Under the pieces are notes generated by a model. That model saw only the letters and a list, made by a program, of their open reading frames with translations, made no database searches and was not told the origin of the DNA. A stretch of DNA of 32,916 nt. It comes from Chromatiaceae bacterium. GTDB taxonomy: Bacteria > Pseudomonadota > Gammaproteobacteria > Chromatiales > Chromatiaceae. Below, in pieces: positions 3,900 to 16,988 of this stretch (position 1 is the first letter of the stretch; each line of letters begins with the position of its first letter). The position numbers and the translations under genes were made by a program. The stretch covers positions 1 through 32,916 of the forward strand of contig JACDZG010000086.1 in NCBI GenBank assembly GCA_013426805.1. The letters run 5' to 3'.

Positions 3900-4781
3900 A
3901 TGGAACCCATTCTGATTGAACCTATCCTGACTGCCGTCGGCTTCATGACCGTTCTTGGTCTGACCCTGGCGGGCATCCTGGTTGTCGCCAACAAGCGACT
4001 CTATGTCTTTGAAGATCCTCGCATCGATCAAGTGGAGGAATTGCTGCCCAGGGCCAACTGCGGGGCCTGCGGCAGTCCGGGTTGCCGGCAGTTCGCCGAG
4101 TCCGTGATCCGCGGCGATGCCGCCCCCGGTGCCTGCACGGTCAACGCCGGATCCATGAATCAGCTCATCGCTGATTTTCTGGGTGTCGCCGTGGGTTTTG
4201 CCGAGCGCCAAGTGGCGCGTCTCGCCTGTGCCGGCGGCAGCCACGTGGCCTACACCAAGGCGTCCTACCGCGGCGTCAAGTCCTGCCGGGGCGCGGCCCT
4301 GGTGTCGGGTGGCGGCAAAGGCTGCTCCTGGGGATGTCTGGGGTTTGGCGACTGCATGACGGTCTGTGATTTCGGCGCCATCAAACTCGACAGCTTCAGT
4401 CTGCCGATCGTGGATACACAGAAATGCACGGCCTGCGGCGACTGTGTCGAGGTTTGCCCCAAGAATCTGCTGAGTCTGCACCCGGTCAGCCATCGCCTCT
4501 GGGTTGCCTGTCTCAGTCATGGCATCGGCGACGTGGCCGAGGCGGACTGCGACGTGGTGTGCACCGCCTGCGGCCGCTGTGCTCAGGATTCGCCCGAGGG
4601 TCTGATCGAAATCAAGGACAATCTGGCGGTGATCGACTACTCGAAGAACGCCCTCGCGTCCCATGTGGCGATCGAACGCTGCCCGACGGGAGCGATCGTC
4701 TGGCTTGAAGCGGACGGCTCCAAGCTCAAGGGGCGGGATGCGAAGAAGGTCATCCGTAAAGCCGCCTTGCCGACGGCCTGA
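3900..4781 (+). CDS. rnfB: Rnf electron transport complex subunit B, long form
   Basis: RnfB is the iron-sulfur subunit that exchanges electrons with ferredoxin in the membrane-bound Rnf complex (ferredoxin:NAD+ oxidoreductase coupled to ion transport). The 293 residues show an N-terminal membrane anchor (about 9-30), then the RnfB-specific cluster motif C54-x2-C57-x4-C62-x16-C79. A two-cluster ferredoxin-like domain follows (C142, C146, C152, C156 and C176, C179, C182, C186). The final ferredoxin-like domain keeps only C221, C224, C227 and C261: the fourth Cys of the first motif is Ser231, and the CxxCxxC of the second motif is gone (around NALASHV). By ferredoxin cross-ligation this leaves exactly one cluster. 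It starts the rnfB-PFOR-rnfCDGEA operon. The Shine-Dalgarno is weak. Confidence 0.93.
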   Translation: MEPILIEPILTAVGFMTVLGLTLAGILVVANKRLYVFEDPRIDQVEELLPRANCGACGSPGCRQFAESVIRGDAAPGACTVNAGSMNQLIADFLGVAVGFAERQVARLACAGGSHVAYTKASYRGVKSCRGAALVSGGGKGCSWGCLGFGDCMTVCDFGAIKLDSFSLPIVDTQKCTACGDCVEVCPKNLLSLHPVSHRLWVACLSHGIGDVAEADCDVVCTACGRCAQDSPEGLIEIKDNLAVIDYSKNALASHVAIERCPTGAIVWLEADGSKLKGRDAKKVIRKAALPTA

Positions 4782-4870
4782 CCGTTTCGAGGAAGCGGTC
4801 GGCGTCTGCGCAGACGTTGCCCGTATCCCCCCAGTTTGCTCAATTCGGATGGTTGCGGCGCCGTTGACAA

Positions 4871-4889
4871 CGCAAGCGCGGTGCTTGCG
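4871..4889. other. Hairpin between rnfB and the PFOR gene
   Basis: CGCAAGC, a 5-base loop and GCTTGCG form a perfect 7-bp stem in the 221-bp gap. There is no T-run, so it is more likely a processing or stability element than a terminator. Its function is unknown. Confidence 0.3.
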
Positions 4890-5002
4890 GTCGGTCGACA
4901 CGCGACCGCGACAGAGATCGCTCGGCGCACTTGGCGCCTTGACTTTTTTATCAGTTGAAGGCTGGCAATCGATCGCCGACAGCCCACCACACGAGAAGCC
5001 CC

Positions 5003-8000
5003 ATGTCCGCTAAGAAAGACGAAAAACAGTTCAAATACCCCGGCATTCGTATGGCGATGGACGGCAACACGGCCGTGATCATGTGCGAGCGGGAGGCGTC
5101 GGACGCCGCGGGGGCCTATCCGATCACCCCATCGACTCAGATGGGTGAGTACTGGGCCGAGGAGGTGGCTGCCGGTCATATCAACATTTCCGGCAATCCG
5201 CTGATCTTCGTCGAACCTGAATCCGAGCACGCCGCGGCCGCCGTGACTGCCGGCATGTCGATGACCGGCCTGCGGGCGGTGAATTTCTCTTCCGCCCAGG
5301 GCGTGGCCTTCATGCACGAGTCGCTCTATGGGGCGGTCGGCAAGCGGCTGCCCTATGTGCTCAATATCGGCGCCCGCGCCATCACCAAGGCGTCACTGAA
5401 CGTCCACTGCGGCCACGATGATTACCACTGTATCGACGATACCGGCTTCTTTCAGGTCTTCGGCAAGAGCGCCCAGGAGGCCGCGGACCTGAGCGTGATT
5501 GCGCGCAAGGTGGCTGAACTCTCGCTCACCCCCGCCGCGGTCGGCCAGGATGGCTTTCTGACCACCCACCTGATCGAGCCGCTGCGTGTCCCGGAGCGTG
5601 AACTGATCGCCGAATACCTGGGTCGTCCGGACGACATTATTCCTTGTCCCACGCCGGCACAGAAGATGATCTACGGGGAGACCCGGCGGCGCGTCCCCAT
5701 GCTGTGGGACGTGGACAATCCGGCGCTGTCCAGCCCGGTGCAGAACCAGGATGCCTATATGCAGGCGGTAGCCGGTCAGCGTCCCTATTTCTTTGATCAC
5801 ATCGAGGCGATCGCCGATCGGGCGATGGACGAGTTTTACAACCTCACCGGTCGGCGCTACCGGCGGGCCAGCGGCTATTCCATCGATGACGCCGAGTATC
5901 TGATTCTGGGCCAGGGCAGTATGGTGACCCAGGCCGAGGCGGTCGTGGACTATCTGCGCGACACCCGCAAGCTCAAGGTCGGCGTGGTGAATCTCACCAT
6001 GTGGCGCCCCTTCCCGGGTGACCTGATCGCCCGTCTGCTCCAGGGCAAGCGCGGGGTGGCGGTGCTCGAACGGACCGATCAGCCGTTGGCTGAAGATTTG
6101 CCGATCATGCGCGAGGTGCGCGCGGCACTCGCCAAATGTCTGGAAAACGCCGCCGTGGGCAAGGGCGAAGCGCTCCCCTATCCGGCGTATCCCACCTACA
6201 AGCAGGGCGACATGCCCAGACTCTATTCCGGCTGCTATGGATTGGGGTCGCGCGATCTGCAGCCGGAGGGTCTGATCGCCGCGGTGGAGAATATGCTGCC
6301 GAACGGCAAGCGCCGCAGCTTCTATTATCTGTCGGTCGATTTCGTGCGCGAGGCGGCCGATCCCAAGGATGAAATTCGCATCCATCGGCTCACCGATGCC
6401 TATCCCGGTATTGGGGATCTGGCGCTGCGCGGCAGCGAGAATCCGAATTTGTTGCCCAAGGGCGCCATCACGGTGCGCATGCACTCGGTCGGTGGTTGGG
6501 GTGCCGTGACCACGGGCAAGAACCTGGCCATGACGCTCTATGAACTGCTCGGTTTCGATATCCGGGCCAATCCCAAATACGGTTCGGAAAAGAAGGGTCA
6601 GCCGACCACCTACTTTCTGTCCGCCGCTCCGGAGGAAATCCGGCTCAATTGCGAATACACCTATGTCGATGTGGTGATGTCGCCTGACCCCAATGTGTTC
6701 ACCCATTCGAACCCGCTTTCCGGGCTCGATAAAGGCGGTTCCTTCATCGTTCAGTCGAGCCTCGACAATCCCGAGCAGGTGTGGGCGAGCTTTCCGCCCC
6801 AGGCCCGCAAATTCATGATCGACAACGGGATCCGCGTCTTTTATATCGACGGGTTCAAGATCGCCCGTGAAGAGGCGTCCGATGTCGAGATGCAATACCG
6901 CATGCAGGGCAATGCCTTCCAGGGTGCCTTCTTTGCGGCCTCGCCCCTGATGGAGCGGTCCGGACTCACCGAGGAGGGTCTGTTCACGGCGATCGGCGAT
7001 CAATTGCGCGAGAAGTTCGGCGGTAAGGGCGAGCGGGTGGTGCAGGACAACCTGCGTATCGTACGCCGCGGCTTCGACGAGATTATCGAGATCAAAGACA
7101 AGCCGGTCATCGCCGGTCAACTCATCTCGCGCAAGACACCGGGGCTGCCGGTCATGCTGAAGACGCTGCCCGAGGGCGATGGCGGCATCACCGACGTGCA
7201 TCGGTTCTGGGAGCAGACCGGCGTCTTCTATGCCACCGGCCGCGGCAGCGACAATCTGGTCGACCCGCAGATGGCGGTGTCGCTGATGCCGGCCTCCACC
7301 GGTGTCTACCGTGACATGACACAGATCCGGTTCGACTATCCGAAATACCTTCCGGAAAACTGCACCGCCTGCGGCAACTGTTTCTCCGTGTGCCCGGACA
7401 GCGCCATCCCGGGCCTGGTGAACACCATCTCAGATATCTTCGCCACCGCCATCAACCGGGTCGAACGGACCCTGCCCACCCAGCACCTGCGCCGTGAGAC
7501 CCGCAATGTGGAGAAGCGCCTGCGTGAACTGATCGCGGGCGCCGGGGAAGCCGCCGATATGCGCACCCTGATGGATCGGGCGGTGCTCGAAACCCTGGCG
7601 GCCTTCAGCGGTGAGCCGGAGCAGAAGCCGGTGCTGGAGAAGGAAATGGGCCTGATGATGGCCGCGCTGGGCGATTACCAGTTTGCCATTACCAAGCCGT
7701 ATTGGACCAATCGTGAGAAGAAGCAGCCGGGCACGGGCGGACTCTTCAGCATCACCGTGAATCCCTATACCTGCAAAGGCTGCATGGAGTGCATCGAGGT
7801 CTGCGGCGACGGCGCCCTGATCGCCGAGCCCCAGACCCCCGACAGCATCGTGCAGATGCAGGCCCGCTGGAAGACCTGGCTGGCGCTGCCGACCACCGAC
7901 CCGTCGTTCATCCGCATCGACGATCTGGACGGCAAGGTGGGTGCCCTGGAGACCCTGTTGCTCGATAAGGGCAATTACCAGTCCATGGTGTCGGGCGACG

Positions 8001-9907
8001 GGTCCTGCATGGGCTGCGGCGAGAAGACGGTCATCCATCTCTTCACCGCTACGGTTGCCGCCCTGATGCAGCCGCGGGTCAAGGCCCATCTGGCCGAGCT
8101 CGACGACCTCATCAACCGGCTGGAAACCCATGTGCGCCTCAAGCTCGCCGCCGGGGTCAACCTGAGCGACAGCGCCGCCATCGTACGGGCGCTCGACAGC
8201 AGCAAGCATACTGACCTCACGCTGTCGGACCTCTCCGCTCAACTCGACCGCAGCGGTCAGCCGGTCGACACGGAATGGCTGCGCTGGGTCACCGGACTGC
8301 TCGATAAGCTGCGGCATCTCAAGACCCAATACACCAAGCCGCAGCCGCGCTCGACCATGGGCATCGTGAACTCCACCGGCTGCACCTCGGTGTGGGGTTC
8401 CACCTGGCCCTATAACCCCTATCCGTTCCCCTGGACCAATCACCTGTTCCAGGATTCGCCATCCATCGCGCTCGGGCTCTTCGAGGGCCACATGTGCAAG
8501 ATGGCCGAGGGTTTCAAGGCGGTGCGGATGGCGCGGCTGGAGCTGGAAGGCAAGTACAACGAGGCCGAGCATCACAAGTTCTTCACCTATTACGATTGGA
8601 AGCAGTTCAGCGAAGAGGAGTGGCGGCTGTGTCCGCCGGTGGTCGCGGTGGGCGGTGACGGGGCCATGTACGACATCGGGTTCCAGAACCTCTCGCGCGT
8701 CCTCGCCTCGTCCCATCCGGTGAAGGTCCTGGTGCTCGATACCCAGGTCTATTCCAATACGGGTGGTCAGTCCTGTACCTCCGGCTTCATCGGCCAGGTG
8801 GCGGACATGGCGCCCTACGGCAAGGTCGGGCGGGGCAAGACCGAGATCCGCAAGGAGGTGGCGCTGATCGGTGCGGCGCATCGCGGGTGCTTTGTCCTGT
8901 CCAGTGCGACCTCGCATATGACCCATTTGCTGGAGGGCTATATCGACGGTCTGAACAGTCGTCATCCGACCCTGTTCAATGTCTATAGTTCCTGCCAGCC
9001 GGAACACGGGATCGGCGATGATATGTCCACCCGTCAGGCGCGGATGGCCGTTGAGTCGCGTGCGTATCCGCTGTTCCGTTTCGACCCGGACGCAGGCACC
9101 ACCTTCGAGGAGTGCTGCTCGGTCGAGGGTAATCCGAACATCGACCAGGACTGGATCTCCTGGACCCTGAAGTACACCGACGACAAGGGCGCACCGGCCG
9201 AAATGACCGTGCCCTTCACCTTCGCCGACTTCGCGATGAGCGAGGGGCGCTTCCGCAAGCACTTCCGTAAAGCGCCGCCCGAGACCTGGAACGACTCCAT
9301 GGTGCCCTTGGCGGAGTTCCTGGATCTGTCCGAAGACGAACGGGAGGGGATGTTCCCCTACATCTGGGGAGTGGACGGCAAGAACCGACTGATGCGCGTC
9401 CTGGTGTCCGCGGAACTGGTGCTCTCCACGGAAGAGCGCCGGGGCTACTGGTCCCAGTTACGCGGTATCTGCGGCCAACTCAATCAGGTCGACGTGGAAC
9501 AGATCCGCAATCAGGCGAAGGCCGAAATGGCGCAGAAGCTCACCAGCAGCCTGCTCGCGATGGCTGGCGGGGACATGGGCGCGCTGACCGCACTCGGCGG
9601 CAACGGCGGCATCGGCATCCAGGCCGACAGCGCCGGTGCCGGTGCCGGTGCCGGGGATTGGTCGCCGGTGTGGATCGACACCCCGGAGTGCACGGCCTGC
9701 GACGAGTGCATCAACATCAACCCGAAGATCTTCAAGTACAACGGGGCCAAGCAGGCCGAGGTGGCGGATGCCCGCGGCGGACCCTTCAAGGATATCGTCA
9801 AGGCGGCCGAGAAGTGCACCGCCGGGTGCATCCATCCGGGAACGCCCTTCAATCCGGCCGAGGCCGGGGTCGATAAACTGATCAAGCGGGCGGAGAAATA
9901 CCAGTAG
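5003..9907 (+). CDS. nifJ: Pyruvate:ferredoxin oxidoreductase fused to a C-terminal ferredoxin domain
   Basis: This 1634-residue enzyme interconverts pyruvate + CoA with acetyl-CoA + CO2 + reduced ferredoxin. Visible in order: the N-terminal pyrimidine-binding domain with AYPITPST (38-45); the central gamma-type domain (RMHSVGGWGAVTTGKN, from 492); two ferredoxin motifs (C787, C790, C793, C797 and C924, C927, C930, C934); proximal-cluster Cys C1002, C1005 and probably C1331; and thiamine diphosphate binding around GGDGAMYDIGFQNL (1217) and SNTGGQS. A Gly-Ala linker (about 1545-1551) leads to a single-cluster ferredoxin-like domain (C1563, C1566, C1569, C1605). Typical homodimeric enzymes have about 1170-1200 residues. 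The excess lies in this tail and in insertions near 800-915 and 1010-1115. I chose ATG 5003, preceded by GAGAAG, over an upstream TTG (4955). RnfC begins two bases after the stop. Confidence 0.93.
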   Translation: MSAKKDEKQFKYPGIRMAMDGNTAVIMCEREASDAAGAYPITPSTQMGEYWAEEVAAGHINISGNPLIFVEPESEHAAAAVTAGMSMTGLRAVNFSSAQGVAFMHESLYGAVGKRLPYVLNIGARAITKASLNVHCGHDDYHCIDDTGFFQVFGKSAQEAADLSVIARKVAELSLTPAAVGQDGFLTTHLIEPLRVPERELIAEYLGRPDDIIPCPTPAQKMIYGETRRRVPMLWDVDNPALSSPVQNQDAYMQAVAGQRPYFFDHIEAIADRAMDEFYNLTGRRYRRASGYSIDDAEYLILGQGSMVTQAEAVVDYLRDTRKLKVGVVNLTMWRPFPGDLIARLLQGKRGVAVLERTDQPLAEDLPIMREVRAALAKCLENAAVGKGEALPYPAYPTYKQGDMPRLYSGCYGLGSRDLQPEGLIAAVENMLPNGKRRSFYYLSVDFVREAADPKDEIRIHRLTDAYPGIGDLALRGSENPNLLPKGAITVRMHSVGGWGAVTTGKNLAMTLYELLGFDIRANPKYGSEKKGQPTTYFLSAAPEEIRLNCEYTYVDVVMSPDPNVFTHSNPLSGLDKGGSFIVQSSLDNPEQVWASFPPQARKFMIDNGIRVFYIDGFKIAREEASDVEMQYRMQGNAFQGAFFAASPLMERSGLTEEGLFTAIGDQLREKFGGKGERVVQDNLRIVRRGFDEIIEIKDKPVIAGQLISRKTPGLPVMLKTLPEGDGGITDVHRFWEQTGVFYATGRGSDNLVDPQMAVSLMPASTGVYRDMTQIRFDYPKYLPENCTACGNCFSVCPDSAIPGLVNTISDIFATAINRVERTLPTQHLRRETRNVEKRLRELIAGAGEAADMRTLMDRAVLETLAAFSGEPEQKPVLEKEMGLMMAALGDYQFAITKPYWTNREKKQPGTGGLFSITVNPYTCKGCMECIEVCGDGALIAEPQTPDSIVQMQARWKTWLALPTTDPSFIRIDDLDGKVGALETLLLDKGNYQSMVSGDGSCMGCGEKTVIHLFTATVAALMQPRVKAHLAELDDLINRLETHVRLKLAAGVNLSDSAAIVRALDSSKHTDLTLSDLSAQLDRSGQPVDTEWLRWVTGLLDKLRHLKTQYTKPQPRSTMGIVNSTGCTSVWGSTWPYNPYPFPWTNHLFQDSPSIALGLFEGHMCKMAEGFKAVRMARLELEGKYNEAEHHKFFTYYDWKQFSEEEWRLCPPVVAVGGDGAMYDIGFQNLSRVLASSHPVKVLVLDTQVYSNTGGQSCTSGFIGQVADMAPYGKVGRGKTEIRKEVALIGAAHRGCFVLSSATSHMTHLLEGYIDGLNSRHPTLFNVYSSCQPEHGIGDDMSTRQARMAVESRAYPLFRFDPDAGTTFEECCSVEGNPNIDQDWISWTLKYTDDKGAPAEMTVPFTFADFAMSEGRFRKHFRKAPPETWNDSMVPLAEFLDLSEDEREGMFPYIWGVDGKNRLMRVLVSAELVLSTEERRGYWSQLRGICGQLNQVDVEQIRNQAKAEMAQKLTSSLLAMAGGDMGALTALGGNGGIGIQADSAGAGAGAGDWSPVWIDTPECTACDECININPKIFKYNGAKQAEVADARGGPFKDIVKAAEKCTAGCIHPGTPFNPAEAGVDKLIKRAEKYQ

Positions 9908-9909
9908 CC

Positions 9910-11370
9910 ATGAGCAACGGCACCTCACAAGACCCGCCGAAAGGGGCGGGCGGCACCTGGCGGCCGATGATCGCGCGCATGCTCGCCGGTCTGCGCCCGG
10001 CCTCCGCCCGCCCCGGCGGCCATGGGTCCGGGCTGCTGCGGATCTTCCGCAAGCGCAAGACCTTCCCCCACGGGATCTATCCCGTGGAGCATAAAGAATG
10101 GACCGCGGACAAGCCGATCCGGCGTCTGCCGTTCGCGCCGGTGCTGGTCCTGCCGCTGGCCCAGCATCGGGGGGCGCCGTCGCAGCCCCTGGTGCAGGTC
10201 GGTCAAGAGGTGGTGCGGGGCGAGCCGATCGCCCGCGCCGCCGGGTTCGTCTCGGTGCCCATGCACGCGCCGGCCACCGGGGTGATTCAGGCGATCGACC
10301 TGGCGCCGACCCCGGAAGGCCCCAAGACGATGGCCATCTATCTCAAGGTCTACCAGGCGGACCCGCAGCAGGTGCTGTTCGACACCGGCCACGACATCGA
10401 TTCCATGACCAACGAGGAAGTCGTGGCGGCGGTGCAGGAAGCCGGTCTGGTGGGTCTGGGCGGTGCCGCTTTCCCCAGTCATGTGAAGCTCATGCCGCCC
10501 AAGGACGCGGTGATCGATACGGTGATCGTCAACGGGTGCGAGTGCGAGCCCTATCTCACCTGTGACCACCGGGTGATGCTGGAGCAGACCGACGCCCTGC
10601 TGCGCGGCATCCGGTTGATCATGCGAATCACGGGGGCCAAGCGGGCCATCATCGGGGTGGAGGACAACAAGCTGAACGCGGTGGATCAAATCCGCGCCAA
10701 GCTGCCCGCCAATCTGCCGATCACCGCCGAGGCGGTCGAGAGCAAATACCCGCAGGGCGCCGAGAAGATGCTCATCAAGAGTCTGCTCGGCAAGGAGGTG
10801 CCGGTCGGCGGCCTGCCCGCCCATGTGGGCGTGGCGGTGTTCAATGTCGGCACCCTGGCGCAGATCGGCGATCTGCTGCCCAAGGGCCGCGGCCTGATCG
10901 AGCGGGTGGTGACGGTGAGTGGGCCGGCGGTGGCCAACCCCGGCAACTTCATGGTGCCGATCGGTACACCGGTGCGTTTCCTGCTGAACCATGTCGGGAT
11001 CAAGCCAACCCTGGGTCAGGTGATTCTGGGCGGGGCCATGATGGGCATGTCGGTGTCCTCGATCGATGTGCCGGTCACCAAGGGCGTCTCCGGGATCGTG
11101 GCCCTGGAGCGCGACGAGGACGATCCGGCGCGGCGTCAGGTCTATCCCTGCATCAAGTGCGGCGAATGTCTCAAGGCTTGTCCGATCAACCTCAATCCCT
11201 CCATGCTGGGTGAGTTGGCGCAGGCGCGCGAGTACGGGCTCATGGCCCAGGGCTACAATCTGGATCAGTGTTTCGAGTGCGGCAGTTGCGCCTATGTCTG
11301 CCCGTCGAACATCCCGCTGACCCAGTATTTCCGTATCGCCAAGTCGATCAACCGGGAGAGGAAGAACTAA
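9910..11370 (+). CDS. rnfC: Rnf electron transport complex subunit C
   Basis: RnfC is the peripheral subunit that binds NADH and FMN and carries two [4Fe-4S] clusters. The 486 residues show an N-terminal extension of about 45 residues, then HGIYPVEHKEW, typical of the RnfC start. The nucleotide-binding core has GLGGAAFPSHVKL near 178-190, followed by NGCECEPYLTCDHR. A soluble-ligand-binding beta-grasp segment follows, then paired cluster motifs C414, C417, C420, C424 and C454, C457, C460, C464. The length is near that of short RnfC proteins; the long repetitive C-terminal tail found in many gammaproteobacterial RnfC proteins is absent. It begins two bases after the PFOR stop, which indicates cotranscription and probable translational coupling. 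Confidence 0.95.
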   Translation: MSNGTSQDPPKGAGGTWRPMIARMLAGLRPASARPGGHGSGLLRIFRKRKTFPHGIYPVEHKEWTADKPIRRLPFAPVLVLPLAQHRGAPSQPLVQVGQEVVRGEPIARAAGFVSVPMHAPATGVIQAIDLAPTPEGPKTMAIYLKVYQADPQQVLFDTGHDIDSMTNEEVVAAVQEAGLVGLGGAAFPSHVKLMPPKDAVIDTVIVNGCECEPYLTCDHRVMLEQTDALLRGIRLIMRITGAKRAIIGVEDNKLNAVDQIRAKLPANLPITAEAVESKYPQGAEKMLIKSLLGKEVPVGGLPAHVGVAVFNVGTLAQIGDLLPKGRGLIERVVTVSGPAVANPGNFMVPIGTPVRFLLNHVGIKPTLGQVILGGAMMGMSVSSIDVPVTKGVSGIVALERDEDDPARRQVYPCIKCGECLKACPINLNPSMLGELAQAREYGLMAQGYNLDQCFECGSCAYVCPSNIPLTQYFRIAKSINRERKN

Positions 11371-11376
11371 GCCGCC

Positions 11377-12426
11377 ATGGTTAAAGGCATCGAGATCCGC
11401 ACCTCCCCGCACCTCAAGCGGGCGCTCAATGTGCAGCAGATCATGCGCAGCGTGGTGTACGCCATGCTGCCGATCTGTGCCTTCGCCATCTGGCAGTTCG
11501 GGCTCAGCGCCGCCCTGCTGTTGGCGACGACCACCGGTGCCGCGGTGGCCACCGAAGCCTGGTTCTCGCGCCTGCGCGGGGCGGGCAATACGGTGGCCGA
11601 CTGGTCGGCGGTCATCACCGGCATCCTGCTCGGACTCACCCTGCCGCCCGGCTTTCCGTTGTGGATGGCCGCGGTGGCGGCTTTCGTGGGTATCGGGCTC
11701 GGCAAGGCACTGTTCGGCGGCTTGGGCTACAACGTGATGAATCCGGCCCTGATCGGCCGGGCCTTCGTGCAGGCCGCGTTTCCGGTGGCGATCACCACCT
11801 GGACCCCGGCCTTCGCCCCAAGCCGCTTCGTTGAACTGATCCCGACCACGCTGACCGCACCCTTCATGCGCCCGGAGTCGGTGACTGACTGGATCGCCGG
11901 GCTGGGCGTCGACTCCTGGACCGGTGCCACCCCCCTGGCGATGCAGAAGTTTCAGCATATCGAAACACCGGCCTGGGACACCTTCGCCGGGTTGGTATCG
12001 GGTTCGGCGGGCGAGACCTCGGCCCTGCTGATCCTGGTATGCGGTCTGTGGCTGGCCTGGCGCGGCTGTCTGGACTGGCGCATCCCGGCCAGCGTGCTGG
12101 CGGGCGCCGCGCTCACCGCGCTGCCGTTCTGGCTGGTCGATCCCGGCCTCTATCCCTCGCCCTGGTTCGTGCTGTGTTCCGGCGGTCTGATGCTCGCCGC
12201 CTGGTTCATGGCCAGCGACATGGTGGCCTCGCCGGTGACACCCTGGGGGGCGATCATCTACGGCGTGTTCATCGGGGCGCTGACGGTGATCATCCGGCTC
12301 TTCGGTGGCTTGGTGGAGGGGGTGATGTATGCCATTTTGCTCGGCAATGCCGCCGGTCCGCTGATCTCGGCCTGGACTCAGCCGCGGGTCTATGGGGCGG
12401 TGAAAAAGGCGCGTGCCAAGTCCTGA
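11377..12426 (+). CDS. rnfD: Rnf electron transport complex subunit D
   Basis: RnfD is an integral membrane subunit of the NqrB/RnfD family that carries a covalently bound FMN and belongs to the ion-translocating core. The 349 residues hold about nine to ten hydrophobic segments. The flavinylation motif is TGAT in DSWTGATPLAMQ, so Thr185 is the expected FMN attachment site. GGLGYNVMNPALIGRAF (114-130) is another family hallmark. The gene starts six bases after rnfC. Flavin attachment normally needs an ApbE-type transferase, and none is encoded in this window. Confidence 0.94.
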   Translation: MVKGIEIRTSPHLKRALNVQQIMRSVVYAMLPICAFAIWQFGLSAALLLATTTGAAVATEAWFSRLRGAGNTVADWSAVITGILLGLTLPPGFPLWMAAVAAFVGIGLGKALFGGLGYNVMNPALIGRAFVQAAFPVAITTWTPAFAPSRFVELIPTTLTAPFMRPESVTDWIAGLGVDSWTGATPLAMQKFQHIETPAWDTFAGLVSGSAGETSALLILVCGLWLAWRGCLDWRIPASVLAGAALTALPFWLVDPGLYPSPWFVLCSGGLMLAAWFMASDMVASPVTPWGAIIYGVFIGALTVIIRLFGGLVEGVMYAILLGNAAGPLISAWTQPRVYGAVKKARAKS

Positions 12427-12432
12427 TCCCCG

Positions 12433-12452
12433 GCCGCGGGTGCGCCCGCGGC
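12433..12452. other. GC hairpin between rnfD and rnfG
   Basis: GCCGCGGG, the loop TGCG and CCCGCGGC form a perfect 8-bp stem seven bases after the rnfD stop codon. A second, slightly imperfect stem follows at about 12473-12492. This is the only wide gap (157 bp) among rnfC-rnfA, and there is no T-run. The hairpins could tune relative mRNA levels across the operon. Confidence 0.4.
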
Positions 12453-12583
12453 TCGCGATGGGGGCGCACCGTCCGGTACCGCGCGGTGCCGGGATGCCGC
12501 CACCGCCGTCAGGGTGGATCAGCGCGGTCACCGCAACGCGCGGGTGACCGGACGTTCTCAGGATCAACAGGTTTTTTCCGACT

Positions 12584-13291
12584 ATGACCAATGACGTACA
12601 AGTCGAGGCACCGCAGGCCCCGCCGGATGCAACGCCGACCTTCGCCATGCTGCGCACGCTGGGGGGGATCTCGCTGATCTCCGGTCTGCTGGTGGTGCTG
12701 GCGTATCAATTCACGCTGCCGATCATCGCGGAGAATCAACGCGTGCGGACCGAGCAGGCGGTCTTCCGGGTCGTTCCGGGCGCCGTCACCAAGCGCGACT
12801 TCGTCCTGACCGACGCCGGGTTGGTGCCGGCGGGGGAGGGTGTTCAGGGCGAACTGATCTATGCCGCTTATGATGCGGCCGACCAACTCAAGGGCGTCGC
12901 GATCACCGGTGTCGGCAATGGCTACGCCGGGCCGGTGACCGTGCTGTTCAATTACGACCCCGCCTGCCAGTGCATCGTCGGCAGCAAAATACTGCAAATG
13001 ACCGAGACTCCGGGATTCGGTGACAAGATGGAAACCGATCCGGAGTTTCTGGAGAATCTGAAGGCGCTTGATGCCAAGCTGAACGCCGACGGGACGGCAC
13101 TCATCAATCCTATTGTGACCGTCAAGCACGGCACCAAGACCCACCCCTGGCAGATCGACGCCATCAGCGGCGCGACCCTCTCCTCCAATGCCATGGGTAA
13201 GGCGGCTAATACCGCCGCACAACGGGCCACGCCGGCGATCCAGCGGGATCTCGCGAAGCTCACCGCGGCCAACCACACCGGGCAGGACTGA
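12584..13291 (+). CDS. rnfG: Rnf electron transport complex subunit G
   Basis: RnfG is a membrane-anchored FMN-binding subunit facing the periplasm. The 235 residues have one N-terminal membrane helix (about 25-46) after a Pro- and Ala-rich leader, then the FMN-binding domain with GNGYAGPV and QMTETPGFGDKM. The attachment motif is SGATLSS, so Thr198 should carry the second covalent FMN of the complex. The Cys pair in DPACQCIVG (C128, C130) is less usual for this region. It is separated from rnfD by a 157-bp hairpin-containing gap and from rnfE by four bases. Confidence 0.93.
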   Translation: MTNDVQVEAPQAPPDATPTFAMLRTLGGISLISGLLVVLAYQFTLPIIAENQRVRTEQAVFRVVPGAVTKRDFVLTDAGLVPAGEGVQGELIYAAYDAADQLKGVAITGVGNGYAGPVTVLFNYDPACQCIVGSKILQMTETPGFGDKMETDPEFLENLKALDAKLNADGTALINPIVTVKHGTKTHPWQIDAISGATLSSNAMGKAANTAAQRATPAIQRDLAKLTAANHTGQD

Positions 13292-13295
13292 CACC

Positions 13296-13958
13296 ATGGC
13301 CGAATTGCCGAAACATCAGGAAGATCTGAGTCTGGATACCTTCGTTCGGGGACTCTGGAAAGAGAACCCGGTTTTCGTCATGCTGCTCGGTATGTGCCCG
13401 ACACTGGCCGTATCCAACTCGGCGATCAATGCCATCTCGATGGGGCTCGCGACGACCTTCGTGCTTGCCGGCTCGGGGGCGCTGATCTCCGGGCTGCGGA
13501 ATTGGATTCCCAAGCAGGTGCGGATCGCGAGCTATATCGTGATCATCGCGACCTTCGTGACCATCGTGGACTACGCCATTCAGGCCATCAGTCTGGACCT
13601 CTATGCCGCGCTGGGCGCGTTCATCCAGCTGATCGTGGTCAACTGCATCATCCTGGGCCGCGCCGAGGCCTATGCCTCGCAGCAGCGTCTGGTGCCGACT
13701 CTGGTGAACAGCCTGGGAATCGGTGCCGGTTTCACGATCGCCCTGTTCGCGCTGGGGTCGGTGCGTGAAATCCTGGGCAGCGGTACCCTGTTCGGTCTGC
13801 ACCTGTTCGGCGCTGGATTCCAGCCCTGGGTGGTGATGGTCCTGCCCCCCGGCGGTTTCTTCGTACTGGGTGCCTGGCTCTTGTTGTTCAACTGGATCAA
13901 ACAACGCGGCGAGCGTCGCGCCGATGCGCCGACTGGAGTTCCCGCCAATGCACGCTGA
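13296..13958 (+). CDS. rnfE: Rnf electron transport complex subunit E
   Basis: RnfE is an integral membrane subunit that, with RnfA, forms the pseudo-symmetric core holding an intramembrane [2Fe-2S] centre. The 220 residues contain about six membrane helices. The two conserved Cys expected to bind the iron centre are C34 (LLGMCPTLAVS) and C117 (IVVNCIILGRAEA). I chose ATG 13296, four bases after rnfG, because it precedes MAELPKHQEDLS and the conserved LWKENPVFVMLLG. Upstream in-frame codons overlap rnfG and do not resemble the family. Its end overlaps the rnfA start by 11 bases. Confidence 0.94.
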   Translation: MAELPKHQEDLSLDTFVRGLWKENPVFVMLLGMCPTLAVSNSAINAISMGLATTFVLAGSGALISGLRNWIPKQVRIASYIVIIATFVTIVDYAIQAISLDLYAALGAFIQLIVVNCIILGRAEAYASQQRLVPTLVNSLGIGAGFTIALFALGSVREILGSGTLFGLHLFGAGFQPWVVMVLPPGGFFVLGAWLLLFNWIKQRGERRADAPTGVPANAR

Positions 13959-14538
13959 GTCGCTCCCGTCGATCTTTCTGAACGCCGCGATCGTCAACAA
14001 TTTCGTATTGGCGATGTTTCTCGGCATCTGCCCCTTCCTGGGTGTCTCGTCGAAAAAAGAGACCGCCTGGAACATGGGGTTGGCGGTGATCTTCGTGCTC
14101 CTGGTCAGCTCCGCCGCGGCGTTCGGAATCAACTGGCTGCTGGTCAACCTGGAACTCGAGTTCCTGCGGCTGATTTGCTACATCGCGGTCATCGCCTCGA
14201 CCGTGCAGCTCGTCGAGATGTTCGTCAAGCGCTATAGCCCCGCTCTGTTCCGGTCGTTGGGTATCTTCCTGCCGCTCATCACCACCAATTGCGCGGTCCT
14301 CGGTCTGGCCCTGTTTCAGACACAGAAGGAATACGACTTCATCCAGAGTCTGGTCTACGCCCTGGGTGCCGGGGCGGGATTCACCCTGGCACTGATGCTG
14401 ATGGCCGGGCTGCGCGAACGCCTGGCCCTGGCGCGGGTGCCGGACGTGAGCCAAGGCGCGGCCCTGACCCTGATGCTGGCCGGGCTCTTGTCCCTGGCCT
14501 TCATGGGCTTCGCCGGGCTGGGGGGCTCCCATGGTTAA
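13948..14538 (+). CDS. rnfA: Rnf electron transport complex subunit A
   Basis: RnfA is the second core membrane subunit, paralogous to RnfE and inserted in the opposite orientation. The 196 residues contain about six membrane helices. C28 (FLGICPFLGVSS) and C115 (LITTNCAVLGLAL) are the expected ligands of the shared [2Fe-2S] centre. The start at 13948 (MHAESLPSIFLNAAIVNNFV) is supported by family alignment and a GGAG about nine bases upstream. It overlaps rnfE by 11 bases, and the next small gene begins inside its last codons. Confidence 0.94.
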   Translation: MHAESLPSIFLNAAIVNNFVLAMFLGICPFLGVSSKKETAWNMGLAVIFVLLVSSAAAFGINWLLVNLELEFLRLICYIAVIASTVQLVEMFVKRYSPALFRSLGIFLPLITTNCAVLGLALFQTQKEYDFIQSLVYALGAGAGFTLALMLMAGLRERLALARVPDVSQGAALTLMLAGLLSLAFMGFAGLGGSHG

Positions 14539-14707
14539 GGCGCTCACCGCATCCCTGGTGATTTTCGCCGTCATGCTGGGCTGGCTTTGGGTGCAGGCGG
14601 CCTATGCCCGCTTCGCGCGGCGCTACCCGGAACTGGGTCCCTTCCGCGGCGATGGCGGGTGCGGCGGCGGCTGCTCCTGCGGTAAGGGCAACTGCGAGCG
14701 GGATTGA
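14531..14707 (+). CDS. 58-residue membrane protein with a Cys-rich tail, coupled to rnfA
   Basis: This small frame starts with ATG at 14531, overlapping the last eight bases of rnfA. It has one membrane helix (about residues 4-25, rich in Leu, Val, Trp) followed by Arg residues, so the tail should face the cytoplasm. The tail ends GCGGGCSCGKGNCERD, placing Cys at 44, 48, 50 and 55. The layout (one helix plus four clustered Cys, beside the genes for the intramembrane [2Fe-2S] subunits) resembles NqrM (DUF539), the small protein needed to mature the related Na+-NQR. It also resembles FeoB-associated Cys-rich membrane proteins. I see no direct NqrM sequence signature, so an assembly or iron-delivery role is inference. 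The tight overlap supports a real, translationally coupled gene. Confidence 0.7.
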   Translation: MVKALTASLVIFAVMLGWLWVQAAYARFARRYPELGPFRGDGGCGGGCSCGKGNCERD

Positions 14708-14780
14708 GCAATCGCGATCAGCGGTCAGCTGATCAGCGCAATCAACACTATTTGGCAAGACCATCCATTTGGAGCACTGC

Positions 14781-15641
14781 ATGAGCGAGCTGCCGGCCGA
14801 TATCGGCCCCACCACTGAAGCGATTATTAAAGAAAGCAAGCGCATCACTCCGGCCGCTGCCGATGAAGTGCGCCATTTGTCGATCCAAGTTCTCGACCCG
14901 GCCTTCCAGTTCGTTGAGGGTCAGAGCATCGGGGTGGTCGTCCCCGGCCCCCATCCATTCGGCAACCCCTATCATGTGCGGCGTTATTCGATCGCCAATG
15001 CGCGCAGCGTGCCGCAGGACGCGGGCGTCGCCCTGGATCTCCTGGTACGCCGCTGCTTCTCGATTGATGAGGTGAGCGGTGAGCGTTACCCCGGCATCGC
15101 CTCCAATTATCTCTGCGATGCCAAGCCCGGCGACCGCTTGACGATCAGCGGACCCTATCTCAGCCCATTCAAGATGCCGCTGGATAGCAACGCCAATCTG
15201 CTGATGATCGGCACCGGCACCGGCATCGCCCCCTTCCGCGCCTTCGCTCAGCTCATCTACGAACGCCGCGGCGGTTGGCAGGGTCAGGTGCGCCTCTATT
15301 ACGGCGGCCGGACCGGGCTCGATCTCATGTATGCCAACGATGAGACCACCGACCTCGCCGACTATTACGACGAGGCCACCTTCAAAGCCTTCAAGTCGCT
15401 GGCCCAGCGTCCGCTGATGCGCTCCTCCGATGCCCTGGAGCAAGGACTGAGTGAGCACGCGGCCGAAGCCTGGGGGCTCATCCAGGACCCCAAGACCCAT
15501 GTATTCGTTGCCGGACTCGGGCGCATCGCCACCGTCCTGGACAAGGTCATGGCGGATCAGGCCGGATCCGCCGACGCCTGGAAGGCGTGCAAGCAGACGC
15601 TGATCAACGAGAAGCGTTGGTCGGAGCTGGTCTACAACTGA
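14781..15641 (+). CDS. Plant-type ferredoxin-NADP(+) reductase
   Basis: This 286-residue flavoenzyme should move electrons between ferredoxin and NADP(H). The FAD domain has RRYSIAN (67-73) and GIASNYLCDAKPGD (105-118). The pyridine nucleotide domain has GTGTGIAPFRAF (144-155) and YYGGRTGLDLMYANDE. It ends EKRWSELVYN, with an aromatic residue near the end as in plant-type reductases, although one Asn follows the Tyr. I chose ATG 14781, with GGAG six bases upstream, over an in-frame TTG at 14769. It lies 73 bp after the small Cys-rich gene and probably closes the rnf-PFOR operon, connecting its ferredoxin pool to NADPH. Confidence 0.88.
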   Translation: MSELPADIGPTTEAIIKESKRITPAAADEVRHLSIQVLDPAFQFVEGQSIGVVVPGPHPFGNPYHVRRYSIANARSVPQDAGVALDLLVRRCFSIDEVSGERYPGIASNYLCDAKPGDRLTISGPYLSPFKMPLDSNANLLMIGTGTGIAPFRAFAQLIYERRGGWQGQVRLYYGGRTGLDLMYANDETTDLADYYDEATFKAFKSLAQRPLMRSSDALEQGLSEHAAEAWGLIQDPKTHVFVAGLGRIATVLDKVMADQAGSADAWKACKQTLINEKRWSELVYN

Positions 15642-15854: not shown

Positions 15855-16988
15855 ATGTGGATCTGGCAACGGCCTGACTGGCCGACCTTCAGTTTTGATG
15901 CGAGCCGCCTGGCTTCGACCGTCGCCGAGTACCGGTGTCGGGCCGAGGCACTCGCGGGTACCGTGTCGCGATTGGCCGTCGATGACCGACGGGAAGCCCT
16001 GGTGGACCTGCTCGTTTCCGAGGCGATCAAGACCAGTGCCATTGAAGGCGAACAACTGGATCGTGCGTCGGTCCGCTCCTCAATCAAAGCCTACATCGGA
16101 CTGACTCCGAAAGACACCCTGTCCCGAGACCCGCGGGCCGACGGGATCGCGGCCCTCATGGTGTCCGTTCGCGACAACGTTGCCCGGCCGCTGGACGCCG
16201 CTTTGCTCGGAATCTGGCAGACCATGGTGATCCCGGAGCGCCCGTCCCATGCATTGGAGCGGGGCGTCTTTCGTCGCGGCGACGCGCCGATGCTGATCGT
16301 CTCCGGTTACATCGGCAAACAGCGGGTGCATTACGAAGCACCACCGTCATCACAGGTGCCGCAGGAGATGGCCCGATTTTTGGCTTGGTACAACGCGACC
16401 GACCCTACCATCAACAAGAACCCGCTTCCCGGACCGCTGCGAGCCGGCATTGCGCATCTGTGGTTTGAATCGATCCATCCGTTCGACGACGGCAACGGCC
16501 GAGTCGGGCGGGCTATCGCCGATCACGCCATTGCCCAAGACCTCGGGTACCCGCCACTGTCCAGCCTCGCCACCTGCATCGAGGCCGACAAGAAGACCTA
16601 CGATGCGCTGTTGGAGCGCAGCCAACGTGCGGGGCTTCAGATCGATGACTGGCTCACCTGGTTCGTCGCAACGGTGCTCAAGGCCCAAGATATCGCCCGC
16701 ACGCAGATCGACTTCGTGGTCGAGAAGGCGCGCTATTTCGACCGATTTCGCGATCGTCTCAACGGCCGTCACCAAAAAGCGATTGCCCGGATGTTCGCCG
16801 CGGGTCCGGCCGGATTCGAGGGCGGCATGACGGCCGGGAAATATATCGGCATCACCGGCTGCTCGAAGGCGACCGCGACGCGCGACCTGGCGACCCTGCT
16901 CCAGCTCGGTGCCTTGATCAGCCTGCCCGGCGGCGGGCGCAGTGCCCGCTACGGGCTGCCGCGGGTATCGGGGCAGATCCCCGAATGA
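15855..16988 (+). CDS. Fic-domain AMPylase with N-terminal autoinhibitory motif
   Basis: Fic proteins usually transfer AMP from ATP to hydroxyl side chains of target proteins. The 377 residues begin with a DUF4172-like segment (MWIWQRPDWPTFSFD). The inhibitory motif [S/T]xxxE[G/N] follows as TSAIEG (60-65), which places the protein in the class with the inhibitory helix ahead of the Fic fold. The catalytic motif is complete: HPFDDGNGRVGR (208-219) with His208 and Arg219. The C-terminal 70 residues look like a winged helix (YIGITGCSKATATRDLATLL). It is a single gene without an adjacent antitoxin, as expected when inhibition is in cis. The target is unknown. Confidence 0.9.
   Translation: MWIWQRPDWPTFSFDASRLASTVAEYRCRAEALAGTVSRLAVDDRREALVDLLVSEAIKTSAIEGEQLDRASVRSSIKAYIGLTPKDTLSRDPRADGIAALMVSVRDNVARPLDAALLGIWQTMVIPERPSHALERGVFRRGDAPMLIVSGYIGKQRVHYEAPPSSQVPQEMARFLAWYNATDPTINKNPLPGPLRAGIAHLWFESIHPFDDGNGRVGRAIADHAIAQDLGYPPLSSLATCIEADKKTYDALLERSQRAGLQIDDWLTWFVATVLKAQDIARTQIDFVVEKARYFDRFRDRLNGRHQKAIARMFAAGPAGFEGGMTAGKYIGITGCSKATATRDLATLLQLGALISLPGGGRSARYGLPRVSGQIPE

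Follow-up and report, generated by a model that had tools for sequence, protein, structure and literature searches.

Directly behind rnfA in a Chromatiaceae Rnf operon lies a frame encoding only 58 residues, and the locus raises the question of what so small a membrane protein, with a cysteine-rich tail, does beside an Rnf complex. The window, that is, the whole stretch of 32,916 nucleotides that was analysed, holds this frame (ORF58) in a single forward-strand operon with the gene order rnfB-PFOR-rnfCDGEA-ORF58-FNR. The operon opens with a long-type rnfB of 293 codons (3900–4781; TIGR01944 at 73.8 bits, cut-off 68.7) and a gene for a PFOR-like 2-oxoacid:ferredoxin oxidoreductase with a C-terminal ferredoxin domain (4955–9907; TIGR02176 at 376.6 bits, under the cut-off of 911). 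It continues with rnfC (9910–11370) and rnfD (11377–12426), both with Pfam and NCBIfam matches, rnfG (12584–13291; FMN-binding domain, TIGR01947 at 82.8 bits, under the cut-off of 102), rnfE (13296–13958; Pfam and NCBIfam matches, tested from 13299) and an rnfA of the ORF58-bearing clade described below (13948–14538; TIGR01943 at 243.3 bits, cut-off 229.3). ORF58 (14531–14707) follows, and the next gene encodes a ferredoxin-NADP reductase-like protein (FNR; 14781–15641; its top NCBIfam matches, to PetH and BoxA, stay under their cut-offs). We take the rnfE product to pair with RnfA around the intramembrane [2Fe-2S] centre, a cofactor assignment made from family knowledge. The operon has its own RnfB, given the long-type gene at its head, which scores E 1.3e-20 in an rnfB search; three more rnfB matches (E 1e-20 or better), one of them with an internal stop, lie on other contigs of the same genome. 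The arrangement from 3900 to 15641 suggests that a 2-oxoacid oxidoreductase feeds this Rnf directly and that the complex is connected to NADP. The same combination of long-type RnfB, PFOR, RnfCDGEA, ORF58 and FNR occurs in several phyla by label and in three of the eight genomes of the window's genus, and its PFOR-like protein in the window, at 1650 residues, exceeds the TIGR02176 (pyruvate:ferredoxin oxidoreductase) model by about 480 positions.

Translation of 14531–14707 gives 58 residues with cysteines at 44, 48, 50 and 55, and the rnfA stop codon (TAA, 14536–14538) lies within the frame, confirming both the protein and the eight-base overlap that a sequence-only reading, made without database searches, had described when it pointed to the frame as overlooked. 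An AlphaFold2 model built from one of our alignments (A2) has a single helix at residues 2–31, in agreement with the one membrane helix of that reading, followed by a disordered cysteine tail (block mean pLDDT 49). The 20 residues after the helix are richer in lysine and arginine than those before it in all 75 members with usable frames, drawn from the best 80 of 571 relatives, which suggests that the tail is probably cytoplasmic, a weak test of topology because the head consists of few residues only. Pairwise dN/dS between the window protein and seven relatives is 0.15–0.46. The frame is real and conserved, and the lack of conservation in relatives, of the frame or of its cysteines, that the sequence-only reading had said would count against it was looked for and did not occur. 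A second match to ORF58 in its own genome (contig C212, E 0.5) was rejected, as it is out of frame within an unrelated frame of 859 residues.

Strong matches to ORF58 (E 4.1e-8 or better) were found in 18 of 55 genomes, comprising its own and those of relatives, all within the window's family (Chromatiaceae), and each of the 17 outside its own genome lies 3' of a window-like rnfA; within the genus, three of eight genomes carry it. A profile of these 18 sequences gave 17 matches at E 0.01 among 369 genomes of the class. Eleven were clear (E 1.9e-13 or better), and the ten of these from other genomes all adjoin rnfA; five of the six weak matches fall outside rnf clusters, the exception being L075. 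Among 398 genomes of the phylum, the profile gave three matches at E 0.001, including its own genome, and a search of plasmids found none.

We then scanned named genomes with the window's RnfA and went on with the best 80 of 571; these loci represent Rnf close to that of the window rather than Rnf at large. At 77 of these best 80 loci, a protein with a helix and a cysteine tail lies just 3' of rnfA; this count includes two loci judged by eye, one where the frame starts and the contig ends (L118) and one with a stop near the beginning (L119). No ORF58 was found just 3' of rnfA at the remaining three (L085, L155 and L157). Usable frames came from 75 of the best 80, some with starts trimmed by hand and two (L108 and L156) kept by hand despite failing parts of the strict filter. 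The filter, a transmembrane segment followed by at least three cysteines between –60 and +700 of the rnfA end, passed 73 of the best 80 rnfA loci, whereas of 2827 positions drawn at random from those loci it passed 69; it also fired at 10 of 32 canonical rnfA loci, where the hit was always a ferredoxin stretch inside RnfB, so that by itself it is no proof. By record label the best 80 span nine phyla, namely Pseudomonadota, Verrucomicrobiota, Kiritimatiellota, Lentisphaerota (from L119 only), Hydrogenedentota, Bacteroidota, Acidobacteriota, Myxococcota and Calditrichota, many of the records being metagenome bins in which single labels may be wrong. Within the best 80, the two frames share 1, 4 or 8 bases at the rnfA stop in 39 of the 72 loci with a computable gap, three gaps not being computable. 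A PFOR match is present at 53 of the 58 loci of this sample with about 9.3 kb or more of upstream sequence, and FNR lies within 1.5 kb at 31 of the 57 with at least 2.5 kb downstream.

The same genomes supplied 40 other rnfA or nqrE loci for comparison. None of the 32 canonical rnfA loci, in which rnfB follows within 0.6 kb 3', carries ORF58, and neither does L202 (genome G803), where rnfA is followed by a long-type rnfB, making 33 rnfA loci of other kinds without it. None of the four NqrE-type loci has ORF58 3' of nqrE, one contig (L199) is too short to judge, and the last two, L197 and L198, which are second Rnf copies in Bacteroidota genomes, do carry it. In an RnfA tree of 121 rows, a single clade of 82 (support 100/97) takes in all 80 ORF58-bearing rows together with L085 and L199, and a separate branch (100/99) holds the 32 canonical rows; three changes were counted for the ORF58 label, and the tree carries a long-branch warning. 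ORF58 thus belongs to one Rnf clade, the PFOR-linked Rnf and its relatives, and not to Rnf generally, so that the tie to Rnf proposed by the sequence-only reading holds for this clade, while its extension to Rnf as a whole fails at the 33 other rnfA loci.

An ORF58 profile was also run against 49 genomes, those of 50 loci picked from the 80 (a spread plus L085, L155 and L157) apart from the genome of L152. It gave 49 matches in 46 genomes, of which 47 directly follow an rnfA match on the 3' side and the two exceptions lie in G791 and G822, and it missed a divergent copy in G828. The genome of L085 (G791) has an intact, unlinked ORF58 on another contig (C269; L220:4959–5162, reverse strand), beside a phosphoenolpyruvate synthase gene, and also a partial canonical rnfA; in the L085 rnf cluster itself, other genes lie between rnfA and the FNR gene. 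G793 and G795, which have Rnf without ORF58, gave no profile match anywhere in the genome. Three Rnf clusters in Bacteroidota and Acidobacteria bins differ in their PFOR, which is absent at L205 and matched only distantly at L207 and L209; L205 and L209 have an ORF58 relative, and L207 ends at the contig end.

RseC is a membrane protein that acts as an accessory of canonical Rnf/Rsx; in E. coli, according to passages of PMC11729352, the three conserved cysteines of its CX2CX5C motif can bind an Fe-S cluster. Across the 49 genomes its distribution is complementary to that of ORF58: RseC was found in 24 of the 26 genomes with a non-ORF58 Rnf versus 1 of the 23 without one (Fisher p 1e-10, uncorrected for kinship, in genomes of unstated completeness). 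The exceptions are G806 and G803, which have a non-ORF58 Rnf without RseC, and G811, which has RseC and only an ORF58-type Rnf. Two weak matches were excluded, in G823 (25.1 bits, in a frame of 916 residues) and in G827 (under the cut-off); counting both gives 3 of 23 (p 1e-8). The absence of RseC could follow phylum rather than function. That RseC tracks non-ORF58 Rnf so closely bears on the function of RseC itself. ORF58 stands alone in ten genomes, including G823 and G827, where the chosen thresholds gave no other type of rnfA, no NqrM, no NqrE and no accepted RseC. The Pfam NqrM family was detected in 6 of the 49 genomes and in only 5 of the 19 with an NqrE-type match; a dedicated factor is therefore not detected for every relative. 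One Kiritimatiellae genome with an NqrE-type match (G822) has an extra frame of 67 residues (L221:2525–2728, reverse strand) that adjoins a VTT-domain protein and has, by eye, an NqrM-like helix and tail; it is unmatched in Pfam and is possibly a diverged NqrM.

The cysteines of the tail are ordered but not rigidly spaced. Among the 75 members from the best 80 of 571 relatives, 68 fit CXCX3-5C or CX2CX4-6C, so the order is non-random: 300 shuffles of the tails averaged 10 and never exceeded 20. The same 75 members have two to six cysteines (two in L156, four in 55 members) in 39 forms of spacing, and this variability favours a carrier over a fixed electron relay. CX3CXCX4-5C occurs in 18 of the 75 and CX2CX5C in 30, the latter absent from the window protein and present in all seven RseC proteins compared. 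How well C44 is conserved depends on the alignment, because A1 lacks it in 4 of the 18 members from the Chromatiaceae family (L006, L007, L008 and L012), whereas A2 places a cysteine in that column in every row. The only PDB profile hit of ORF58 was SoxR (E 0.1), at a CX2CXCX5C stretch, its [2Fe-2S] site; this spacing is close to the CX3CXCX4-5C of ORF58 and recurs unchanged in L092, although SoxR is a DNA-binding transcription factor.

A conserved, one-helix, cysteine-tailed protein that is tied to one Rnf clade and has an NqrM-like tail is best read as serving assembly or iron delivery. We accordingly lean, if only slightly, towards ORF58 being a dedicated factor for the insertion or assembly of iron or of a [2Fe-2S] cluster in this clade, with a role like that of NqrM but in a separate family. 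Translational coupling would put ORF58 beside newly made RnfA, where its single helix might dock on the RnfA/RnfE pair. The tail, if it is indeed cytoplasmic and binds metal, could hold iron or a labile cluster and would pass it to the cysteine half-sites of RnfA and RnfE. ORF58 would in this way do for its clade what NqrM does for Na+-NQR, and RseC may serve canonical Rnf/Rsx likewise. The intramembrane centre can form without ORF58, as canonical Rnf lacks it. In the literature, the relevant parts of a 2025 review (PMC12174285) describe NqrM as seemingly needed to insert the intramembrane [2Fe-2S] centre of NQR and name no such factor for the RNF centre; the corresponding parts of PMC6209661 name none for the RNF iron centre, and the two sources together are the basis for the placing of the NqrM gene beside the nqr genes and for its role in the NQR centre. 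Searches among openly available papers listed no factor that matures the iron centre of Rnf.

The likeness to NqrM (DUF539, PF04400) raises the alternative that ORF58 is simply a diverged member of that family. NqrM has about 60–80 residues, one helix and then a tail usually with four cysteines, and ORF58 has the comparable layout that the sequence-only reading had pointed out; in Vibrio the NqrM gene lies beside the operon of the homologous pump, and RnfA and RnfE are homologues of NqrE and NqrD. Profile comparison aligned the two tails over 16–20 columns with a probability of 79–90 and one-to-one E values of 1.6e-5 and 1.6e-6. A control comparison of NqrM with RnfB gave 0.1, so the likeness is more than a general effect of cysteines, at least in the tail, since the helix is not reached; cysteine-rich tails can, on the other hand, align by composition. 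Two frames, L152 and L221:2525–2728, appear intermediate by eye, neither with a Pfam match at E 0.1. Against membership, the PF04400 profile gave nothing for the window protein at E 10 and matched 1 of 69 members (E 0.016), the helix is unaligned, and the NqrM tail signature GSCGG...CXCXXPCXKR (alignment A3) is not kept. ORF58 differs further in its helix (WxxVQ...FAxRHPEFGP, in place of the NqrM core), in its variable cysteine spacing and in being tied to Rnf, not NQR. We consequently rejected membership and regard it as improbable that ORF58 is a diverged NqrM. The kind of function put forward by the sequence-only reading is probably right, and a kinship with DUF539 is not borne out. FeoB-associated cysteine-rich membrane proteins (PF12669), small proteins with a helix and a cysteine tail, have a similar layout; at E 0.05 the 69 members matched 14 Pfam families, and PF12669 was none of them. 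The window protein had no NCBIfam match and in Pfam only DUF1345 at E 0.1, below the cut-off, and the best values among the 69 members (Pfam E 0.00046, NCBIfam E 0.00058) fell to scattered, unrelated families, such as DUF6234 in seven and MtsC in five. Lacking a convincing match in either collection, ORF58 is treated here as a putative separate family. RseC was likewise rejected as a home for it, with no match to PF04246 and a profile comparison probability of 3: both are Rnf-associated membrane proteins whose cysteine motif faces the cytoplasm, as predicted in the case of ORF58, but RseC has two helices and an N-terminal cysteine domain (in the parts of PMC11729352 on its architecture) and is 137–177 residues long in the seven compared.

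The main rival to a maturation factor is a permanent small subunit: ORF58 would stay in this type of Rnf, its helix packed on RnfA/RnfE and its tail serving as a redox centre or as a dock for PFOR, RnfB or FNR. The shared operon, the strict linkage and the restriction to one clade would all be expected of a subunit, and the genes for PFOR, and in many loci for FNR, share the cluster with rnf at the frequencies given above for the best 80 of 571. A relay centre, in contrast, needs fixed ligands, which the variable number and spacing of the cysteines do not offer, the tail is disordered in the AlphaFold2 model, and ORF58 is present at 23 of the 26 loci of the best 80 without FNR within 1.5 kb as well as at L197 and L198; we consider a subunit possible but unlikely. 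That ORF58 instead senses redox state or iron and regulates the cluster fits the SoxR-like spacing and a proposal, in a portion of PMC9124969, that RseC regulates the RNF genes of Clostridium ljungdahlii, yet 58 residues without a recognised DNA-binding or signalling domain, encoded behind rnfA and before FNR, make this quite improbable. Descent from RnfB, as a remnant or substitute, was suggested by the position of ORF58 in the slot that rnfB occupies at all 32 canonical loci and by the fact that RnfB too begins with a helix followed by cysteines; it is very improbable and close to refuted by the complete long-type RnfB encoded upstream, and at 58 residues ORF58 matches neither PF04060 nor a ferredoxin family and reaches a profile probability of only 8 against long-type RnfB.

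If the maturation-factor reading of ORF58 is extended, each branch of the Rnf/NQR group would have its own membrane-bound, cysteine-motif builder of the [2Fe-2S] centre, NqrM for NQR, RseC for canonical Rnf and the ORF58 family for PFOR-linked Rnf, a tentative proposal that we hold to be plausible without being probable. Were it true, the membrane iron centre of Rnf would have its first dedicated maturation factor in ORF58, and RseC would be recast as one too, a new reading of that protein. An uncatalogued family from nine phyla, by label, bears on how [2Fe-2S] is inserted into the membrane part of Rnf. The frame would also be relevant when PFOR-type Rnf is expressed in a foreign host, because a gene of this size is readily missed in building the construct. 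Elsewhere in the window, a gene for a DUF4172-Fic protein lies just behind the operon (15855–16988, forward strand), and 178–1944 on the same strand encodes a DUF6399 protein that has weak matches to helix-turn-helix families and may be transposase-like.
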